64,000 nt of DNA from NCBI RefSeq assembly GCF_038446525.1, contig NZ_CP151792.1, positions 496,001 through 560,000 on the forward strand, given 5' to 3'. The notes beneath the pieces were generated by a model. It was not told the DNA's origin and did no database searches. It was given only the letters and a program-made list of their open reading frames with translations. This stretch comes from Methanolobus sp. ZRKC5 (lineage in GTDB: Archaea > Halobacteriota > Methanosarcinia > Methanosarcinales > Methanosarcinaceae). The position numbers and the translations under genes were made by a program. Shown one piece after another: positions 5,439-60,543 of this stretch; the stretch's first letter is position 1; each line of letters begins with the position of its first letter.

Positions 5439-6974
5439 TTATGGTTTACCTTTCTCAAAGACACCTTTTATACAACATATTATCGACAGGGATAAAAAAC
5501 CCATAAAGAAACCAAAACCAGGGGTTGCCTGTGATTCATCCTCATTTCCAGGTACATCCTCCCCCTCCAATACATCATCCTGGGACGATGCCAGCTTTTC
5601 CTTCATTTCATCAGGATTGACAAGTTTGAAAACAACAGGAACTTCACTTAGTCCTATAGCCACGGCTTCTTTGTTCATTGTCTCATAGATATCATTTATG
5701 AGGGACTTAATATCAACATCTGCCTCCTCATTTATATTTACCTCTAAGTATCCGTCAGGTGATAGTCCTGTACTCAGAAGTATGCCACTTTGCAAATAAT
5801 CATCCACCTCATCACTTGCATTAAGGGATATAACGTATGAATCCTGGAAGTACCATTGCCAGCATTCCTTTTCAGTTCTTATCTGAGGTATCTTTCCGGC
5901 TGTGGCCACTACCATAGGATCATACAACTGACTTTCATTGTTCATGAAATCTTCAAGTTCCATCTTGTTTATTACCTGTACCCTTTGAATTAGTTGCTGC
6001 AATCCGTCACTTACATCAGAAACTGTGCCGTCGCCAAATTCCACAGGCACATTATCTATATCCATAGCCTGTGCCTTACGATCAATTATTGCATATATTT
6101 CATCGATCTCGGACTGGTCTACCATGAGAGGTTCGTAGAATATGACGGTCAGGTAACCGGCGGAGTTAGTGCCGATGGATATTATCTTACCCTGTGGAAA
6201 GAGATGCTGGCCTTCGAATTCTGTCAAAATTTCATTCTCCAGTATGAGACTGTTCTGTGACCAGGCATCCCCATTTAGTGCTACCCCGTTCCTTTTTATA
6301 ATTTTATGGTCATCCGGATGGAAACCGAAGCTGTATGCATACCCTAATTGTTCCTCGTATTGCTGTTGAGAGGTCACTTTTTCCACAGTAGATGTTGATG
6401 AGCTACTGCTCGATGTACTTTGTGTGGGACGGTCCAAGTCAATTATGTCCAGGGATGTTGAAGTATCATCCGCTATATCCCCAACTACCAGGGAACTTCC
6501 GGTTGCTTTCCCGACAAGGTATTCTTTACTCTGATCCAGAAGCTTCGCTTCCACGAAGCTAAGACCGTAAACACCCTCAGTAATATCCTTTGTCTCGAAT
6601 TCGACAGATATCAATGTTCCGCTTCCGGGTGCTAAGTTAGTTTCGTAAGCAGCAAATCCATAATTTATCGTGCCATCCCCATCATCACCACTTTCGGGCT
6701 CCACAAGTAAATCAGAATCGAAGATACTTCCTTTCGTAATATCGATTACCTCGAATGCAGCAGAATCATAATGTAACTTTATGTGTGCTGCATGTAAAAG
6801 CTCAACACCGGATTCCACATTAATATCCACATTAAATGTTTCACCAGGAGATAAACCGGTGTGTGATTCAGGAGAGATGAAAACAGATGCCGTTGCCGAT
6901 ACACTCCCGATAGCTGCCATCAGGACCAATAGTGTAAGGATTGAATATCTGAGATAGTTGCTAATACTCCACAT
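5439..6974 (-). CDS. Cohesin-domain surface protein with probable PGF-type C-terminal anchor
   Basis: 511 residues. Signal peptide (residues 1-27), then one cohesin-like domain (about 29-165; ETFNVDINVESG, HAAHIKLHYD, GTLISVEFETK). A Ser/Thr-rich linker follows (183-198), then two copies of a small module (about 245-315 and 395-455), each with a GYLxV strand, a D..I.xIY helix and VPV.F. The C-terminus is an acidic stretch, TPGFGFF (485-487 = PGF), a hydrophobic helix and a short KGKP tail, resembling the PGF-CTERM signals processed by archaeosortases. This is the expected layout of a cell-attached cohesin that could hold the dockerin protein encoded downstream. Start ATG at 6974 is preceded by a G-rich ribosome site. 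The C-terminal sorting call is by pattern only. Confidence 0.75.
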   Translation of the reverse strand: MWSISNYLRYSILTLLVLMAAIGSVSATASVFISPESHTGLSPGETFNVDINVESGVELLHAAHIKLHYDSAAFEVIDITKGSIFDSDLLVEPESGDDGDGTINYGFAAYETNLAPGSGTLISVEFETKDITEGVYGLSFVEAKLLDQSKEYLVGKATGSSLVVGDIADDTSTSLDIIDLDRPTQSTSSSSSSTSTVEKVTSQQQYEEQLGYAYSFGFHPDDHKIIKRNGVALNGDAWSQNSLILENEILTEFEGQHLFPQGKIISIGTNSAGYLTVIFYEPLMVDQSEIDEIYAIIDRKAQAMDIDNVPVEFGDGTVSDVSDGLQQLIQRVQVINKMELEDFMNNESQLYDPMVVATAGKIPQIRTEKECWQWYFQDSYVISLNASDEVDDYLQSGILLSTGLSPDGYLEVNINEEADVDIKSLINDIYETMNKEAVAIGLSEVPVVFKLVNPDEMKEKLASSQDDVLEGEDVPGNEDESQATPGFGFFMGFLSLSIICCIKGVFEKGKP

Positions 6975-7048
6975 TACGTAACCCCCGTTACAGTTTTTTA
7001 GGCGCCAAGGCCTAGTTGTTCAGTAATTAATATTCTTTTTTACTTATG

Positions 7049-8104: not shown

Positions 8105-9157
8105 CTACACTTTAATTATCATATCCGCAGCCTTGCGAACTCTGTTAAAAACAGCCATTCCGATTCCATCTGGCTTAAAAGAACCATCAACTATTATTAC
8201 ATCTATGTTTCTTTCATCGAGATACCTGAATCCAAAAAACAGATGCTTTGCAGCCTGTTCCGGCTTGTCTTTCTCACCAATGGAATATGACAGATGCACA
8301 GGAAACTCACTTTTGGACTCTTCTGTAAGAAGCAAGCCTGTTTTTGCATTCCTCAGACTAAAATCATCAATGAGCTCTTTTATTCGAGAAACTACGTTAT
8401 CATGTTCCCCTTCAACCAGGATAACACCTGACTTCGGAGAATAATGTGTATATTTCATCCCAGGAGAGCGAACAGTCTCACTTTCCGGATGCACTTTATC
8501 ATCATAAGCAACCTGCACCTCCCCAATATATGTTTCAAGCTCTTCCTTGCTTATTTTTCCAGGTCTTAGTATCGCAGGGATCTCGGAGGTCATATCAATG
8601 ACTGTTGATTCAACTCCAATGGAAACTCCTCCCCCATCTATAAGTGCATCTATCCTTCCAGACAGATCAGACAAAACATGTTCTGCTGTTGTGGGACTTG
8701 GCCTTCCCGAAAGGTTTGCACTTGGTGCAGCTATGGGTATTCCTGCATATTTAATTAGTTCAAGAGCAATCTTATTTTCAGGAATCCTGACAGCAACAGT
8801 TTCTAAACCTCCTGTTGTTACATCAGGAACTATTTCCTTTCTTTCCATTATAAGAGTCAAGGGACCTGGCCAGAATATCTCCATAAGAATCGATGCCTTA
8901 TCAGGGATAGCTCTGACAAGTTTCAAACAACTTTCCTTTGAATCCACATGAACTATGAGAGGGTTGTCGGCAGGTCTGCCTTTTGCTTCAAATATTTGCA
9001 TCACAGCTTGTTCGTTAAGCGCATCCGCTCCAAGCCCGTAGACTGTTTCAGTAGGAAAAGCAACAGTTCCACCTGCCCTTAATATACTGGCTGCCTCACG
9101 CACCTGGTCCTCGTAAGTTTTATCACTTATATGGAATACTCTTGTGTTCTTTTTCAT
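8105..9157 (-). CDS. sua5: Threonylcarbamoyl-AMP synthase (Sua5/YrdC/YwlC family)
   Basis: 350 residues, the two-domain Sua5 type rather than the short YrdC type. It makes threonylcarbamoyl-AMP from threonine, bicarbonate and ATP, the first step of the tRNA t6A37 modification. The N-terminal YrdC domain shows FPTETVYGLGADA (about 35-47), KGRPADNPLIVH and PSANLSGRPSPT; a linker with RSPGMKYTHYSPK leads into the smaller C-terminal Sua5 domain. It is followed closely by the small membrane-protein gene. Confidence 0.93.
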   Translation of the reverse strand: MKKNTRVFHISDKTYEDQVREAASILRAGGTVAFPTETVYGLGADALNEQAVMQIFEAKGRPADNPLIVHVDSKESCLKLVRAIPDKASILMEIFWPGPLTLIMERKEIVPDVTTGGLETVAVRIPENKIALELIKYAGIPIAAPSANLSGRPSPTTAEHVLSDLSGRIDALIDGGGVSIGVESTVIDMTSEIPAILRPGKISKEELETYIGEVQVAYDDKVHPESETVRSPGMKYTHYSPKSGVILVEGEHDNVVSRIKELIDDFSLRNAKTGLLLTEESKSEFPVHLSYSIGEKDKPEQAAKHLFFGFRYLDERNIDVIIVDGSFKPDGIGMAVFNRVRKAADMIIKV

Positions 9158-9376
9158 AGTTCAGCGTTATATTAAAAAATTGACTTTGTTTTCAAAATGA
9201 TTTTACCATAGACAATTAAATAGACTGCTGCCATATTGGACGATAATGCTCATAAGTTTTTTGTTGAACTATAACAAGAACCACTATAAATATAAGATGA
9301 CAATTATGACATCAGATTGTGTATTTTATCCTATTGCGACATATACTTAGGCTGTGTCCTCATAAAACGGCAATAC

Positions 9377-9384
9377 TTATATAT
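9377..9384 (+). promoter_or_regulatory. TATA box of a candidate plus-strand small RNA
   Basis: TTATATAT on the plus strand, preceded by AACGGCAATAC. An archaeal start 22-30 nt downstream falls at about 9402-9410, the first bases of the hairpin described at 9404-9470. The flanking genes on both sides run on the minus strand, so this promoter has no protein gene to serve. Confidence 0.45.
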
Positions 9385-9403
9385 GATTATTTCATTTACA
9401 CAC

Positions 9404-9470
9404 GCTGTGAGCGGGTCTGTTTTTTTAACCCCACTCCCACACTAACCCCCACTCCCCAGCCCGCTCACGC
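9404..9470 (+). ncRNA. Candidate small RNA: long stem with C-rich loop
   Basis: GTGAGCGGG (9407-9415) pairs perfectly with CCCGCTCAC (9460-9468); GC on either side extends the stem across one bulged T. The 44-nt loop has a T7 run, then four C-runs. In an AT-rich genome this GC-rich block stands out, and it begins where the TATA box at 9377-9384 would start a transcript. C-rich single-stranded loops suit binding to purine-rich Shine-Dalgarno sites. No protein frame covers it. It recalls the conserved Methanosarcina sRNA41, reported to act on ACDS mRNAs, but homology could not be tested. A DNA-level structure is the alternative. Confidence 0.35.
9429..9457 (-). other. G-quadruplex-forming motif on the minus strand
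   Basis: C-runs at 9429-9432, 9436-9438, 9446-9450 and 9454-9457 give on the minus strand four G-tracts of 4, 5, 3 and 4 bases with loops of 3, 7 and 3 bases. This meets the usual G3+N1-7 rule, and the plus strand could form an i-motif. It occupies the loop of the hairpin at 9404-9470. Confidence 0.6.
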
Positions 9471-9550
9471 TTAATAACAGGGAGTAAAATTAGGTTTTGT
9501 GGAAAAATATATATGCATCGAGTATGGGCATATACACTAAATAACAACTC

Positions 9551-9600: not shown

Positions 9601-9972
9601 TCACTCATTCTCATCTATTGAGCATGCAGATGAACATGCTTTTCCATATTCATCAATTACAGACTCTTTACAGAGACCCACTCCATGACGATGCGCTGCA
9701 CGACTTATCATATGAGCAGATATGGGTGAGGTTACAAGGATGAAAAGAGCTACTGTAATTGCCTTTACACCTATTGGAGAAAAACCTACCTTCAGCAGTA
9801 TGCTAAGCATGACTCCAAAAGCACCGAGTGTTCCTATCTTCGTAGTTGCATGCAACCTGTTATACACATCAGGAAGCCTGGCAAGTCCAAGCATTGCCAG
9901 AAATACAAAGAAAAGTCCTATTATAAGAACAACATTGCTTAGCACTTCCAGAATCATTGAAATTGTGCTCAA
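9601..9972 (-). CDS. mrpG: Na+/H+ antiporter subunit MrpG
   Basis: 123 residues with three membrane helices and the MrpG/MnhG signature (GLARLPDVYNRLHATTKIGTL around residues 29-49, ITSPISAHMISRAA-like segment near 80-92). It is the last of seven genes in an Mrp operon; its start overlaps the mrpF stop by 4 nt. MrpG is a small accessory subunit needed for assembly of the multi-subunit antiporter. The C-terminal tail contains several cysteines (YGKACSSACSIDE), an extra not typical of bacterial MrpG. Confidence 0.92.
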   Translation of the reverse strand: MSTISMILEVLSNVVLIIGLFFVFLAMLGLARLPDVYNRLHATTKIGTLGAFGVMLSILLKVGFSPIGVKAITVALFILVTSPISAHMISRAAHRHGVGLCKESVIDEYGKACSSACSIDENE

Positions 9973-15752: not shown

Positions 15753-18700
15753 TTGCCTAACAAGTACTTAAAGTTTGTTGATACAGCGCTAGCTGTATCA
15801 GGAAACTCACACCTTCAGATTTATAGTTGTAAATATTCTAAAAGAAAATATACCCAACACCAGCTATTGACATTGGTTTTGTTAAAAGAATATCTTGATG
15901 AAGATTATAGAGATATTGTTGAACTTGTAGAAGTGATGGATAAAGTTAAAGCAAGAATTGGATTAAAAGAAGTTCCACATTTTACTACACTGCATAAATT
16001 CATTACAAGAATTAAATCTATCTACTTCACTGGATTATTGCAGCAAACACTAAAACTATTCTATTCACGCGGAGAGCAGATAGAGATTACTGCTATTGAT
16101 TCAAGTGGGTTTACTAGTGGCCACTGTAGTTACTATTATTCCTGGAGAACAGGAAAGAAACGAAGATCTTTCCTGAAAACAAGTATCTCTATTGATACTG
16201 CAAAGTTCATTGTTACTGGTTTCAAGATATCAGGTAAGCCTGTGCATGATGCAAAGCATGCAATGAAATTACTGAAGCAATGCCACAAAACTCGTAGATC
16301 AAAGTACTATGTAATGGACAAAGGTGTGTGACAAGAAGTTGCAACATGAATTGCCATGCGGCTGCTCCTTCCATTCGGAGTAATCCTACAGTGGAATGCG
16401 CTGATGGTAACATTGGGGTATTAAGCCCACTGGACAATGTGGAAAGTAAGGAAGTCCAATTCTTACCGACTGCTAGGATAAGGAAACTATGAAGAGTATA
16501 ATGCGAACCATCGCAAGGATTGTAAACATTAATAAGCGAAACGGACTGTAACGCTTAAACCAAAAGGTATAGAATCAGACTACGATGGCTTCCTTTACAT
16601 TGTGGTGAATGGACAAAAGGTTCTCGGTCTTAAGATGGCTTCTAAGGTTTCCACAATTTATTCACGTTGTAGAACTTGGTAAGTCCCACGTGCTCCTATT
16701 AACAGGTAGGAATTTCGTGAGAAATAACAATGGCACAGGGGATATAGGAAGCGGTAAAAAGCGAATGACATCCTGTAACTGGATGTATAGAGGTTCCAAA
16801 TTTGCCTTGGTCCGAAAGGACGCAGACTTATCGCAGGTATTCTATTGTATGAACGGAGGCAAACTTATGAATGTAAGATATTCAACGACACTTTCAGGTG
16901 AGAAACTTACAGACATCAGACACTCTCTCCAATGGGATTTTATCGATTGGAAAAAAGTGGAGTGGAATGTTAATAAGCTGCAAACCAGAATTGCAAAAGC
17001 TGTTAGACAAAGAAAGTGGCACTTAATTAAACGACTACAATATCTTCTGACCAAATCTTTTCATGCCAGGTTACTGGCAGTGAAAAAGGTAACCCAGAAT
17101 AGAGGTAAAAAGACAGCCGGAATCGACGGAGAAAAGTGGACAACACCTTTATCCAGGACAAAAGCTGCCTTAAGCCTGTCGTGTAAGAACTACAAAGCCA
17201 AACCAATGAGAAGAATCTACATCGAAAAGTATGGGAAGAAGGAGAAACGACCATTAAGTATCCCAACAATGCACGATAGAGCAATGCAGGCATTACATGC
17301 ACTTGCGCTAGATCCGATTGCAGAAACAAATGCTGACAGAGCCTCTTTTGGCTTTCGCCAGAACAGAAGTGCTCATGATGCTTGTGAGCTCTTGTTTAGT
17401 TGTCTATGCAGGAAACAATCTGCTCACTGGGTGCTTGAGGGCGATATAAAAGGTTGTTTTGACAACATAAATCACGATTGGTTATTGACCAATATTCCCA
17501 TGGATAAGTCAATACTCAAGCAATTTCTTAAAGCAGGGTTTATTTATCACCGACATCTGAATCCTACGAAAGTTGGTACTCCGCAAGGAGGCATCATATC
17601 TCCTATTTTAGCAAATATGACTCTAGATGGCATTGAAAATACAATAGCTGCTAAGTATCATACAACTAAAACAGGGATAGTCGCTAAAAGTAGACACAAT
17701 CCCCACAAAGTCAATTTTGTGAGATATGCAGATGACTTTGTTGTCACTGCTGATTCAGAAGAAGTGGCTAAAGACATTGCAAAATTGATATCGGCATTCC
17801 TGAAAAAAAAAGGTCTAGAACTATCGACAGAAAAGACTCTTGTATCTCATATAGATGAAGGATTTGACTTTTTGGGTTGGAATTTCCGAAAATATAAAGA
17901 AAAACTCATTATTAAACCATCGAAGAAATCCATTGAGAAAATCACTACGAATATAAGTGATGTTATCAAGAATGGTAAGGCTTGGTCTCAGGAATCCCTT
18001 ATCCGAAAACTCAAACCTATTATTTCCGGATGGACTGGGTATCACCAATCAGTTGTATCCAAAGATACATTCAGTAAACTTGATTACAAGTTATGGAATA
18101 TGCTTTGGTCATGGGCTAAGAGGCGACATCCTCACAAGTCTCATCGATGGATTGCCAACAGATATTGGCATCATGTTGGTTCTAGGAAGTGGGTATTTTC
18201 TGTTAATGACTATAAGCTCAGACGTTTCTCAGACACGAAGATAATCAGACATCCATGTGTAAAACTTGATATGAATCATTATCTCGATAGAGAATACTTC
18301 AAATGGCGAAGAAGTTATCTAAAAACTCGGAAGAATGGGAACTACACAAACAAACCTAACTATTCTGGACTAACTGGAACATGGAAGAAAATAGTTAGTC
18401 AAATGTATTGAGTACCACAAAAAAAAAGTCAAAAGCTGCCTGATACAGAAAGGGTATAGAATGCTTGAGCGGTATGAAGGGAAACTTTCACGTACCGTTC
18501 TTAGAAGAGGGAGAGCGAGTAATCGCTCTTTCTTATTCGACTACGATGCAGAAGAAATACATTCCATAGCAAGAGAACAACTTCTATCGATAGCTATGAT
18601 TCCTTTGCGAGAAAGGGAAAGAAAGATGATCAAAGGAAAGTACCGTAGAAAAATGGAACGAGAATTCGACAAAGAATTGTATCATAACAGAAATTTGGTC

Positions 18701-19942: not shown

Positions 19943-21580
19943 CTTCTTTTGTAACTATTCAGCCTAGCTCACTTCCACCAAGCTGATTTCTTCATCCACG
20001 ATCAATTCTGCAACTTTGGAACAAATGAATTGCCATAAAATATTGCACTAATTGCATCGATAACAGATTCAGAATTCTTATTAACAGTAGACACGTATCC
20101 TCTTATACGGCAGAAATTTTTTGCACCCTGTTTACTGCGGAAAGTACCTGATATCTTCTGCTGTACTTTCGTCATTCTGATATCTCTTTCAGCCTGATTG
20201 TTATCAAACGGAACGTTTTGGTCGTACATAAATCGCAAGATATCCTCTTTATGGCCAATAAACCTATCCAGCAAATTCTTTACCGTGGTCTGCTTCTTAC
20301 GTCCTCGTTTTTTAGACCGCACATTTGATTCCGGATCAGGAGGATTTTCATTCACTCCTAAACAAGTTATGTGATCATAATCCTCACTGAACCTTTGAAT
20401 TAGCTCAGTATCTAAAAGATCATTATCAACATGATGTTTAATGCATATCAAGAGATCACTCATTATCTTTGTCCACTGTTGATCACTGTTTTCGGAAGCT
20501 CCAGTTAACTCTCGTAATAAATGTGCATTACATAATGAATGTTGACATTCATATTTGTTGTACGGTTTCCAAAAATCATGTGTTGCAACACCAGTGTAAC
20601 CTGGTAATATGCCCATAGCATCCATTGCTTCTGAGCCCCTTTTACGATGTGCAAAATAATAGGTCAGTTTGTCTGTACCTGCCACATGAAGCCAATTACG
20701 AACTGCATTTATTCTCATTCCTGTTTCATCCAGATTGATGACAGGAGATTCTTTCAGGAGATGTTTCACTGTATTTTCAAAAGCTCCAAGCTTCTCAAAA
20801 CAACTACGTTCCGTGTTCACCAAAGTAGCAGGACTTATCTTGCATCCCAAAATATCAGAGAACAACTTGGTAACACGCTGATAAGGAAGTAATTGGTAAG
20901 TGTGCAAATAAACTGCAAATGACTTAACTCGATGACCGTATTGAGTCGGCTGAGTTACACCATCTGGAAAAAGAGCTTTGTTTACATGAGAACATTTGGG
21001 ACATGTTTTAATCTCGCAACGATGTTCAATGCAATTGATAGTTATAGGAGGAATGTCAAAGACCTGTCTTCTTTCATAGTTAGAGGGAACAGAAGCTAAC
21101 GATCTCCCACAATTGACGCATTGATTAACAGGATGAACAATAACTTCATCCGGATCATCATTTATTCTTAATGTAGTACCAGGATGACCGTTTTGACCAC
21201 CTACATGCTTATTGGTCTTTTTTCTTTGACTTTTAACGGTTGGTTTATTCCGTGCATAAGAATCAGTAGAAGGTGGTTTGCTACTGTTGCGACTATTCTT
21301 TTCAAGCATTTCTTCCAAATGCCTGACACGCTCTTCAAGTTGTGCAATTTGGAGAGATTGATGTTCAATTATCCCAAGTAATCGAGTTACAAGTTCTACT
21401 ACTGCTTCTGGACCAGCTTCATAAACTGCAAGTATTTCTTCGCGGTCTATACAAATCCCCTCAGATTGATAGACGTTTTTTATGATATTTTACTGAATAT
21501 TTTTTAACACATAGAATGAAGCCATAGTATATTGTTTTTTGCATCATTAAAACAGTTAGGCTGAATAGTTACCTTCTTTT
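19943..21580 (-). mobile_element. IS66-family element, copy 1 (ISBst12-like), with 8-bp target duplication
   Basis: The element is 19951-21572 (1622 bp). Its ends are inverted repeats GTAACTATTCAGCCT, and CTTCTTTT is duplicated at 19943-19950 and 21573-21580. It carries one transposase gene and no tnpA/tnpB, as in the ISBst12 group. It is the same length as the copy at 49567-51188 and differs from it in only one residue of the protein. It landed inside the 3' end of a small zinc-ribbon gene. Confidence 0.93.
20002..21450 (-). CDS. IS66-family transposase, copy 1
   Basis: 482 residues if translation starts at the ATA codon at 21450. That codon follows GAGGGG by 6 nt, and the frame from there reads IDREEILAVYEAGPEAVV, matching the usual start of this family; the first conventional candidate is a TTG at 21318. 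A coiled N-terminus is followed by NSRNSSKPPSTD, a zinc-ribbon with CxxC pairs (CVNCG, CPKC) and the DDE domain (INLDETGMR, CNAHLLREL, PFDNNQAERDIRMTK). It differs from copy 2 by Asn for Asp in the S(N/D)YERR segment. Confidence 0.9.
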   Translation of the reverse strand: MDREEILAVYEAGPEAVVELVTRLLGIIEHQSLQIAQLEERVRHLEEMLEKNSRNSSKPPSTDSYARNKPTVKSQRKKTNKHVGGQNGHPGTTLRINDDPDEVIVHPVNQCVNCGRSLASVPSNYERRQVFDIPPITINCIEHRCEIKTCPKCSHVNKALFPDGVTQPTQYGHRVKSFAVYLHTYQLLPYQRVTKLFSDILGCKISPATLVNTERSCFEKLGAFENTVKHLLKESPVINLDETGMRINAVRNWLHVAGTDKLTYYFAHRKRGSEAMDAMGILPGYTGVATHDFWKPYNKYECQHSLCNAHLLRELTGASENSDQQWTKIMSDLLICIKHHVDNDLLDTELIQRFSEDYDHITCLGVNENPPDPESNVRSKKRGRKKQTTVKNLLDRFIGHKEDILRFMYDQNVPFDNNQAERDIRMTKVQQKISGTFRSKQGAKNFCRIRGYVSTVNKNSESVIDAISAIFYGNSFVPKLQN

Positions 21581-48387: not shown

Positions 48388-49466
48388 TATAGTTATTAAC
48401 TAAACATTTATTACTTAAGAGATACAACTATTTTTCATGGCTAAACCAGAACAAATTCTGATAGAGCATCATCTTTCATTAGAGGAATTGCTTAAACATA
48501 TTAAGTCGTTAGAGAAAGATACAAGAGTTCTACAACGTTTGTATTTTGTTAAACACCGTTATGAAGGTGCTTCAGTTAATGAAGCGGCTAAACTTGTAGG
48601 GATATCAAAACCCGTTGCATATCAATGGCAAGAACGGTGGAATCAAGACGGATATAAAGGTTTGAAACCCAGGTTTTCAGGAGGTTGCCCTTCAAAACTC
48701 ACTAATGACCAAAAAGAAAAACTAAAGACCATGTTACATGAGCGTGATGACTGGTCAACAAAAGCAGTTCAGGAACTCATATATAATGAGTTTAAAGTTC
48801 AATACACCATTAAGCAAATATTAGTCATCTTGAAAAAGTTTGGCATGCATCATGGCAAACCCTATACACATGATCATCGAAGACCAGAAGACGCAGAAGA
48901 CCGTTTAAAAAAAACTTACCATTAATCGATGATGGTTGCGTTATCGGCTTTCTTGATGAATCATCTCCACAAACAACATCAAATACAGTTCGTTTATGGT
49001 CTTTCAATAAACCTGTTATCTTCAAAAACACAACCAGGCTAAAAGCAAACTCCTTCGGGTTTTATGCATTGAATGGTAATTCAGTTATAAATTTTAAGGA
49101 ACATTCAACCAAAGAAGATGTATGTTCATTTCTGTCAACTGTAAAAAACAGTAACATAGGAAAAAGAATTGTAATCATTCTCGACAATTTTAGATCACAT
49201 CGAGCAAAAGATACATTGGATTTTGCACAGGCAAATGACATCGAATTGGTCTATTTACCTCCATATTCGCCAGACTTGAATCCAATAGAATTCATCTGGA
49301 AGAGCGTCAAAAGAATAATTTCTTGTAATTTTGTGAAAGATCTTGACCATATGAAAAATCTGATTGCTGAGACGTTTATTAGTTGTTCATCAAAGATTAG
49401 TTTCGCAAGAAAATGGATTGATAAGTTTCTGAAAAATAAGTTATGAATGTTAAGTGAACAACTATA
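48388..49466 (+). mobile_element. IS630-family element, copy 1, with TA target duplication
   Basis: The element spans 48390-49464 (1075 bp) between TA dinucleotides (48388-48389, 49465-49466). The left end TAGTTATTAACT and the inverted right end TAGTTGTTCACT are imperfect inverted repeats. It carries one transposase in two frames. It differs from the copy at 59467-60541 by a G/A near the right end. It sits in an intergenic spacer, only about 100 bp from the IS66 element. Confidence 0.92.
48437..49446 (+). CDS. IS630 transposase, copy 1, made by -1 frameshift
   Basis: Frame 1 (48437-48925) has 162 residues with a helix-turn-helix (EAAKLVGISKPVAYQWQERW) and ends in RLKKTYH. The slippery run A-AAA-AAA (48907-48913) allows a -1 shift into a second frame (to 49446) that contains the DDE catalytic part: FLDESSPQ, IILDNFRSHRA and YSPDLNPIEFIWK. 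Read together they make a full IS630-type transposase of about 335 residues. The same run is present in the second copy. Confidence 0.88.
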
Positions 49467-49558: not shown

Positions 49559-51196
49559 AATGAAATGTAACTATTCAGCCTGACTGTTTTAATGATGCAA
49601 AAAACAATATACTATGGCTTCATTCTATGTGTTAAAAAATATTCAGTAAAATATCATAAAAAACGTCTATCAATCTGAGGGGATTTGTATAGACCGCGAA
49701 GAAATACTTGCAGTTTATGAAGCTGGTCCAGAAGCAGTAGTAGAACTTGTAACTCGATTACTTGGGATAATTGAACATCAATCTCTCCAAATTGCACAAC
49801 TTGAAGAGCGTGTCAGGCATTTGGAAGAAATGCTTGAAAAGAATAGTCGCAACAGTAGCAAACCACCTTCTACTGATTCTTATGCACGGAATAAACCAAC
49901 CGTTAAAAGTCAAAGAAAAAAGACCAATAAGCATGTAGGTGGTCAAAACGGTCATCCTGGTACTACATTAAGAATAAATGATGATCCGGATGAAGTTATT
50001 GTTCATCCTGTTAATCAATGCGTCAATTGTGGGAGATCGTTAGCTTCTGTTCCCTCTGACTATGAAAGAAGACAGGTCTTTGACATTCCTCCTATAACTA
50101 TCAATTGCATTGAACATCGTTGCGAGATTAAAACATGTCCCAAATGTTCTCATGTAAACAAAGCTCTTTTTCCAGATGGTGTAACTCAGCCGACTCAATA
50201 CGGTCATCGAGTTAAGTCATTTGCAGTTTATTTGCACACTTACCAATTACTTCCTTATCAGCGTGTTACCAAGTTGTTCTCTGATATTTTGGGATGCAAG
50301 ATAAGTCCTGCTACTTTGGTGAACACGGAACGTAGTTGTTTTGAGAAGCTTGGAGCTTTTGAAAATACAGTGAAACATCTCCTGAAAGAATCTCCTGTCA
50401 TCAATCTGGATGAAACAGGAATGAGAATAAATGCAGTTCGTAATTGGCTTCATGTGGCAGGTACAGACAAACTGACCTATTATTTTGCACATCGCAAAAG
50501 GGGCTCAGAAGCAATGGATGCTATGGGCATATTACCAGGTTACACTGGTGTTGCAACACATGATTTTTGGAAACCGTACAACAAATATGAATGTCAACAT
50601 TCATTATGTAATGCACATTTATTACGAGAGTTAACTGGAGCTTCCGAAAACAGTGATCAACAGTGGACAAAGATAATGAGTGATCTCTTGATATGCATTA
50701 AACATCATGTTGATAATGATCTTTTAGATACTGAGCTAATTCAAAGGTTCAGTGAGGATTATGATCACATAACTTGTTTAGGAGTGAATGAAAATCCTCC
50801 TGATCCGGAATCAAATGTGCGGTCTAAAAAACGAGGACGTAAGAAGCAGACCACGGTAAAGAATTTGCTGGATAGGTTTATTGGCCATAAAGAGGATATC
50901 TTGCGATTTATGTACGACCAAAACGTTCCGTTTGATAACAATCAGGCTGAAAGAGATATCAGAATGACGAAAGTACAGCAGAAGATATCAGGTACTTTCC
51001 GCAGTAAACAGGGTGCAAAAAATTTCTGCCGTATAAGAGGATACGTGTCTACTGTTAATAAGAATTCTGAATCTGTTATCGATGCAATTAGTGCAATATT
51101 TTATGGCAATTCATTTGTTCCAAAGTTGCAGAATTGATCGTGGATGAAGAAATCAGCTTGGTGGAAGTGAGCTAGGCTGAATAGTTACAATGAAAT
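49559..51196 (+). mobile_element. IS66-family element, copy 2, with 8-bp target duplication
   Basis: The element is 49567-51188 (1622 bp) with GTAACTATTCAGCCT inverted repeats. AATGAAAT is duplicated at 49559-49566 and 51189-51196. The duplicated bases contain the start codon of the PEF-CTERM gene, whose ribosome site AGGTGG (49546-49551) now lies 1.6 kb away. Confidence 0.95.
49689..51137 (+). CDS. IS66-family transposase, copy 2
   Basis: 482 residues if started at ATA 49689 (GAGGGG at 49677-49682, 6 nt upstream); the first conventional start would be TTG 49821, which would drop 44 conserved residues. The domain order is the same as in copy 1: coiled coil, SSKPPSTD, zinc-ribbon, DDE catalytic domain. 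One residue differs from copy 1 (Asp in SDYERR). Confidence 0.9.
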   Translation: MDREEILAVYEAGPEAVVELVTRLLGIIEHQSLQIAQLEERVRHLEEMLEKNSRNSSKPPSTDSYARNKPTVKSQRKKTNKHVGGQNGHPGTTLRINDDPDEVIVHPVNQCVNCGRSLASVPSDYERRQVFDIPPITINCIEHRCEIKTCPKCSHVNKALFPDGVTQPTQYGHRVKSFAVYLHTYQLLPYQRVTKLFSDILGCKISPATLVNTERSCFEKLGAFENTVKHLLKESPVINLDETGMRINAVRNWLHVAGTDKLTYYFAHRKRGSEAMDAMGILPGYTGVATHDFWKPYNKYECQHSLCNAHLLRELTGASENSDQQWTKIMSDLLICIKHHVDNDLLDTELIQRFSEDYDHITCLGVNENPPDPESNVRSKKRGRKKQTTVKNLLDRFIGHKEDILRFMYDQNVPFDNNQAERDIRMTKVQQKISGTFRSKQGAKNFCRIRGYVSTVNKNSESVIDAISAIFYGNSFVPKLQN

Positions 51197-59464: not shown

Positions 59465-60543
59465 TATAGTTATTAACTAAACATTTATTACTTAAGAGAT
59501 ACAACTATTTTTCATGGCTAAACCAGAACAAATTCTGATAGAGCATCATCTTTCATTAGAGGAATTGCTTAAACATATTAAGTCGTTAGAGAAAGATACA
59601 AGAGTTCTACAACGTTTGTATTTTGTTAAACACCGTTATGAAGGTGCTTCAGTTAATGAAGCGGCTAAACTTGTAGGGATATCAAAACCCGTTGCATATC
59701 AATGGCAAGAACGGTGGAATCAAGACGGATATAAAGGTTTGAAACCCAGGTTTTCAGGAGGTTGCCCTTCAAAACTCACTAATGACCAAAAAGAAAAACT
59801 AAAGACCATGTTACATGAGCGTGATGACTGGTCAACAAAAGCAGTTCAGGAACTCATATATAATGAGTTTAAAGTTCAATACACCATTAAGCAAATATTA
59901 GTCATCTTGAAAAAGTTTGGCATGCATCATGGCAAACCCTATACACATGATCATCGAAGACCAGAAGACGCAGAAGACCGTTTAAAAAAAACTTACCATT
60001 AATCGATGATGGTTGCGTTATCGGCTTTCTTGATGAATCATCTCCACAAACAACATCAAATACAGTTCGTTTATGGTCTTTCAATAAACCTGTTATCTTC
60101 AAAAACACAACCAGGCTAAAAGCAAACTCCTTCGGGTTTTATGCATTGAATGGTAATTCAGTTATAAATTTTAAGGAACATTCAACCAAAGAAGATGTAT
60201 GTTCATTTCTGTCAACTGTAAAAAACAGTAACATAGGAAAAAGAATTGTAATCATTCTCGACAATTTTAGATCACATCGAGCAAAAGATACATTGGATTT
60301 TGCACAGGCAAATGACATCGAATTGGTCTATTTACCTCCATATTCGCCAGACTTGAATCCAATAGAATTCATCTGGAAGAGCGTCAAAAGAATAATTTCT
60401 TGTAATTTTGTGAAAGATCTTGACCATATGAAAAATCTGATTGCTGAGACGTTTATTAGTTGTTCATCAAAGATTAGTTTCGCAAGAAAATGGATTGATA
60501 AGTTTCTGAAAAATAAGTTATGAATATTAAGTGAACAACTATA
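59465..60543 (+). mobile_element. IS630-family element, copy 2, inside the histidine kinase gene
   Basis: The element spans 59467-60541 (1075 bp) between TA duplicates (59465-59466, 60542-60543). It is in the same orientation as the host gene. Except for a base near the right end it equals copy 1. The TA is part of a TTA Leu codon of the kinase. Confidence 0.95.
59514..60523 (+). CDS. IS630 transposase, copy 2, made by -1 frameshift
   Basis: Frames 59514-60002 and an overlapping -1 frame to 60523, joined at the slippery run A-AAA-AAA (59984-59990). Both protein parts are identical with those of copy 1, including HTH and DDE motifs. The retention of the same slippery run and frame arrangement supports programmed frameshifting. 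Confidence 0.88.

Follow-up and report, generated by a model that had tools for sequence, protein, structure and literature searches.

A hairpin in the gap between sua5 and mrpG of Methanolobus sp. ZRKC5, judged from comparative sequence analysis, looks like an uncatalogued regulatory RNA with a nearly unchanging C-rich loop. The family to which it belongs looks uncatalogued because it is absent from Rfam, is near-universal in the class Methanosarcinia, and was found nowhere else that was tested. The preferred reading, at a probability of about one half, is a family of freestanding small RNAs, whose loop would act in trans as an antisense to G-rich ribosome sites; the comparisons show the structure and conservation of the hairpin, its strand, the position of the promoter, the copy number and the taxonomic limits, and the expression, pairing, repression and target in this reading are inferred. 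The DNA analysed is a stretch of 64,000 nucleotides, referred to below as the window, and the features discussed are collected in Table 1.

Anatomy, promoter and strand of the hairpin

The gap between sua5 (8105-9157) and mrpG (9601-9972) is 443 bp long, and both flanking genes are encoded on the minus strand, while the promoter and the hairpin are carried by the plus strand. The initial annotation had described a TATA box, a stem and a C-rich loop between two minus-strand genes, and this description proved accurate. The stem GTGAGCGGG/CCCGCTCAC reaches 11 bp when the G-U wobble at either end is included. Inside the stem follow, in this order, seven U residues, CCCCACTCCC, ACACTAA and CCCCCACTCCCC, so that the loop contains four C-runs. 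The hairpin folds alone at -21.5 kcal/mol, compared with -9.5 kcal/mol for shuffled sequences, and none of 200 shuffles equalled it.

Table 1. Positions of the hairpin, its parts and its candidate target in the window.
Feature	Position	Strand	Sequence	Basis or remark
Promoter: BRE-like element (9372-9373) and TATA box (9377-9384)	9372-9384	+	AA; TTATATAT	Position fixed in the family; A-rich columns just upstream
Predicted small-RNA hairpin, A-type family copy	9407-9468	+		Match of 68.1 bits to covariance model R1; fold z -5.5; class-wide conservation
Stem, 5' arm	9407-9415	+	GTGAGCGGG	Pairing and covariation
Loop U-tract	9420-9426	+	U7	U4 or longer in 74 of 75 distinct hairpins
First C-rich motif	9429-9438	+	CCCCACUCCC	Nearly invariant within the genus
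Linker	9439-9445	+	ACACUAA	No variation among Methanolobus A-type copies
Second C-rich motif, the class-wide core	9446-9457	+	CCCCCACUCCCC	Family comparison and covariance model search
Stem, 3' arm	9460-9468	+	CCCGCUCAC	Pairing and covariation, as for the 5' arm
Element complementary to loop ACUCCC	9480-9485	+	GGGAGU	Possible loop-tail pseudoknot, A-type copies only
Candidate target: ribosome site and start codon of a cohesin-domain surface-protein gene	6966-6986	-	GGGGGUUA (6979-6986); UGUGGAGU (6966-6973)	Complementarity to the loop

The proposal that transcription begins at the base of the stem agrees with the predicted start, which falls there at about 26 nt past the centre of the TATA box. 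The same arrangement recurs in the family. A TATA box lies 34-37 nt ahead of GCGGG in 74 of 103 members, and a purine is found at the foot of the stem, the expected transcription start, in 96 of them. The 45 nt downstream show a modest enrichment of T-runs, which occur there in 58 of 102 members (mean 39 and maximum 50 after shuffling). GGGA or GGGG is present within 30 nt downstream of the hairpin in 23 of 27 copies, compared with a mean of 4.1 and a maximum of 9 after shuffling. A GGGAGU-like element about 7-12 nt past the stem is seen in most A-type copies (L004-L030), and may represent a pseudoknot or a means of self-regulation.

G-U pairs are observed in five cells of the stem alignment. 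They favour the plus strand, because the opposite strand would have A-C mismatches in their place. They also bear on a reading at the level of DNA or of the antisense strand, in which a minus-strand G-quadruplex, or a terminator of mrp or sua5, is the conserved entity instead of a plus-strand RNA. The minus strand is G-rich and both neighbouring genes are transcribed in that direction, as this reading would have it; yet the promoter stands at a fixed distance on the C-rich strand, the G-U pairs are on that strand as well, the contexts are unrelated between genera, and members with a single motif would carry too few G-runs for a quadruplex. This reading is considered very improbable, and the hairpin is, on these sequence features, a predicted plus-strand RNA.

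Two further elements were recognized upstream in Methanolobus. In one subclade (L019-L029), a GTGGCTCTTC box is located about 73 nt before the hairpin, upstream of the promoter, and could be the published 'cold box'. In another subclade (L006-L016), inverted repeats resembling TTTATGCC...GGCATAAA are found 70-110 nt before the hairpin, and are a possible operator.

Distribution and conservation of the family

Three copies of the family are present in this Methanolobus genome, designated A (the copy in the window), B (640194-640246) and C (2856476-2856560). The paralogue C has a different stem, GCACGGG/CCCGUGC, around the same motif, and its counterpart in another species has the stem GCGCGGG/CCCGCGC, with paired changes on the two sides. 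The covariance model R1 was built from 18 members; the window hairpin is one of these building sequences, and orthologues and paralogues outside the building set also match the model. Reverse-strand matches in the alignment A4 were taken out with a stricter threshold.

Of the 171 genomes of the class, 169 contain R1 matches, at 1-13 copies per genome. In a sample of 392 genomes from the whole phylum, 99 matched R1, and all 99 belong to the class. When about 85,000 species were scanned with a pattern, 114 stretches were returned. Among the 80 matches listed, one is from an actinomycete and probably occurs by chance, and the others are from unspecified archaea or carry names from Methanosarcinia, such as Methanosarcina, Methanolobus, Methanothrix, Methanococcoides, Methanohalophilus, Methanomethylovorans, Methanosalsum, Methanocrinis, Methanoperedenaceae and ANME-2. 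BLAST with the element matched every one of the 27 genomes of the genus, and gave weaker matches in most of the order. The stem and the C-runs are thus kept in relatives, in all 27 same-genus genomes and then class-wide, and the suggestion of a small RNA with its own promoter is strongly supported by these comparisons, with a class-wide, multi-copy range that exceeds what had been supposed.

Rfam 15 contains no family that matches near the element at the gathering threshold, and only chance-level matches were obtained at E-values up to 10. A literature search with the letters of the motif returned only unrelated papers. No plasmid carrying the family was found, and two pattern matches in IMG/VR, examined as possible viral carriers, proved to be chance matches without the hairpin. 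The novelty lies in the recognition of one family across a class, and individual members may well be present, unnamed, in published lists of small RNAs.

Among 66 distinct members, 98.3% of the stem cells are paired, and 44 cells are changed on both sides. The covariation score is 0.218, compared with 0.097 for shuffled alignments; none of 500 shuffles scored as high, and slid controls scored far lower. Across the family the loop is 26-80 nt long; besides a U-tract it holds the C-rich motif (core ACUAACCCCCACUCCCC) one to three times. Members were collected with CCCACTCC, so for the conservation of the core only the flanking positions are free evidence; the R1 search was performed without that filter. 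The 27 Methanolobus copies were aligned in orientation, one of them lying on a contig edge. Their stem and loop vary only in the length of the U- and C-runs, in one repeat unit and in a few substitutions, and their flanks drift while the TATA box keeps its place. The repeat unit is an additional exact 18-nt copy, CCCCACTCCCACACTAAC, in the loop of one member (L029, genome G007), which thereby has three C-rich motifs. A coding function was rejected: loop lengths of close relatives differ by single bases, and therefore no reading frame is kept.

The A copy adjoins sua5 and mrpG in most of Methanolobus and, partly, in two neighbouring genera. The B copy adjoins a clamp-loader gene, and copies near a membrane pyrophosphatase gene are found in Methanolobus (the C copy), in another genus of the family and in Methanosarcina. 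The neighbours of the remaining copies differ between genera, and therefore the family members appear to be freestanding small-RNA genes; for the same reason, a leader or terminator of one conserved gene was ruled out. In two genomes (L128 in G096 and L048 in G028), the RNA gene stands in tandem, in two or three copies spaced 200-720 nt apart, and every copy has a TATA box of its own. The window itself also contains group II intron RNA parts on the plus strand (16363-16508 and 18465-18541), which enclose an ORF of 600 aa, and pairs of ORFs with identical starts (48437-48925 and 59514-60002; 20002-21318 and 49821-51137), which are probably transposon genes.

Candidate targets of the loop

In the proposed mechanism, each gene of the family would be transcribed from its own BRE/TATA promoter, starting at the predicted foot of the hairpin, and the folded RNA would consist of a short stem rich in G+C, topped by a loop with a U-tract and one or more C-rich motifs. 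The loop would most likely serve as an antisense patch on G-rich ribosome-binding and start regions of mRNAs, blocking their translation. The presence of several gene copies with differing upstream regions would allow different signals to be channelled into a single loop. For Methanolobus, pairing in two blocks is conceivable between the A-type loop, linker included, and the mRNA start of a gene for a cohesin-domain surface protein.

The initial annotation had suggested that the RNA is aimed at ACDS mRNAs, and this is not supported. The corresponding reading makes the hairpin the Methanolobus counterpart of Methanosarcina mazei sRNA41, which masks ribosome sites in ACDS mRNAs according to a review (PMC5867862), and thus a repressor of the ACDS (cdh) operons. 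Methanosarcina-type genomes do have family members in which the C-rich motif is present twice, and by pairing energy with the loop cdhB is third and cdhE fourth among the 64 gene starts of the window. Against this, the G-rich ACDS sites are compatible with the loop, but the pairing of cdhB is not above chance in the window: it is 152nd of 8528 overlapping 45-base stretches, 151 others pairing equally well or better. The GGGGG run noted at the ribosome site of cdhB exists, but the same bases also form the coding end of cdhA. Furthermore, the cdhB site takes four forms among 26 Methanolobus genomes (GGGGGAATG, GGGAGAGTG, GGAGGGATG and GGGGGAGTG), whereas the loop is constant and does not track it. 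A role as the sRNA41 counterpart is accordingly regarded as improbable. Part of the ACDS cdhA/cdhB region has another match in the same genome (G000:C1:3017459-3017619), which is diverged, at 77% identity.

The best of the 64 window leaders is that of the cohesin-domain surface-protein gene (5439-6974; Pfam Cohesin, 1.6e-11), at -23.7 kcal/mol with the loop. Two blocks of its start, GGGGGUUACGUAAUGUGGAGU, are complementary to the loop, namely GGGGGUUA:UAACCCCC and UGUGGAGU:ACU(C)CCACA, and this pairing therefore uses the linker, which is otherwise unexplained. The blocks are for the most part preserved at 11 Methanolobus loci (-18.0 to -27.7, mean -22.8), and GGGGTT ahead of ATG is kept at 10 homologous loci in 9 other Methanolobus genomes, one of which has two; the homologues share about 37-69% protein identity. 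The mean energy of the 11 leaders was reached by 5 of 1000 shuffled loops and by 10 of 1000 shuffles that keep the C-runs, which gives a permutation p of 0.005-0.01 before correction for the choice among 64 leaders. Three points weaken this test: the gene entered it as the top scorer among 64, any C-rich loop will do well against a G-rich ribosome site, and the frequency of the bipartite pattern in the genus does not exceed that of its reversed control. Among 734 leaders drawn from several genera, a wider set that is also less clean, the value for the window gene ranks 35th. At the syntenic position, roughly half of the genus has no cohesin gene, and the RNA is equally conserved there. As far as these sequence comparisons go, the start of the cohesin gene is a better candidate target than ACDS, but only suggestively.

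No mRNA site complementary to the full length of the loop was found, the close loop matches in the genome being only the RNA genes themselves. The genome contains 10 exact occurrences of GGGGAGTGG, of which three are the RNA genes, with no excess over a reversed control. In the genus, GGGGAGTG before ATG is about twice as frequent as its control, as expected of any Shine-Dalgarno-like word; a conserved target of this kind was rejected, since no gene was in common among those examined. Pairing of the loop with 16S or 23S rRNA is no better than that of shuffled sequences.

A conserved mRNA site for the loop was also looked for across the class, and none was found. Because the letters of loop and stem are fixed class-wide in the absence of such a target, a protein-bound RNA is a serious rival, entertained here as a tentative alternative. 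The stem, the U-tract and the repeated C-rich motif would then form a platform for an RNA-binding protein, with no need of pairing to mRNA; the partner would be an Lsm/SmAP-like protein or another single-strand binder, either titrated by the RNA or using it as a cofactor. The near-invariance of the stem letters GAGCGGG, which are far more fixed than pairing demands, is in line with such a platform, as are the U-tract in 74 of 75 loops and the repetition of the motif one to three times, including the exact 18-nt unit added in G007. Set against it are the conserved complementary leader in Methanolobus, the lack of any partner gene linked to the RNA genes, and the restriction of the RNA to the class, while archaeal Lsm proteins are not known to be class-specific.

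Relation to known small RNAs and meaning for the class

Loops with UCCC of the LhrC type pair with Shine-Dalgarno regions, as is proposed here for the preferred antisense reading. LhrC of Listeria is a set of multi-copy small RNAs with redundant UCCC loops (PMC4132741), and this and related UCCC-loop RNAs are alike to the present family in design only, being bacterial and sharing neither sequence nor descent with it. Among archaeal RNAs, sRNA41 resembles the family by description: it is an intergenic small RNA from the same class of organisms, with proposed masking of ribosome sites. The present family differs in being class-wide and multi-copy, and its own pairing with ACDS is not supported. 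Also similar to the proposed mode of action are sRNA162 and sRNA154 of M. mazei, archaeal intergenic RNAs that mask ribosome sites (PMC3510493; PMC5867862). sRNA162 is 191 nt long with three stem-loops, and has homologues only in two other Methanosarcina species (PMC3510493), whereas the present RNA occurs class-wide and consists of one hairpin of about 60 nt. In Methanolobus psychrophilus, 195 sRNAs were reported, and nine conserved, cold-induced sRNAs are described as having an upstream 'cold box' (PMC5378194); they come from the same genus as the present hairpin.

A more far-reaching view is that this near-universal RNA of Methanosarcinia arose at the base of the class, was retained by almost all of its methanogens and methane oxidisers, and acts as a central RNA-protein or translation regulator with a dedicated partner protein, which is a rather doubtful possibility. 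To this class belong many of Earth's methane producers and methane consumers, and one RNA is present in 169 of 171 of its genomes. A single RNA can thus be compared from Methanosarcina to Methanothrix and ANME-2, and the question whether archaea possess core regulatory RNAs on a par with the bacterial 6S or CsrB would thereby become open to test.
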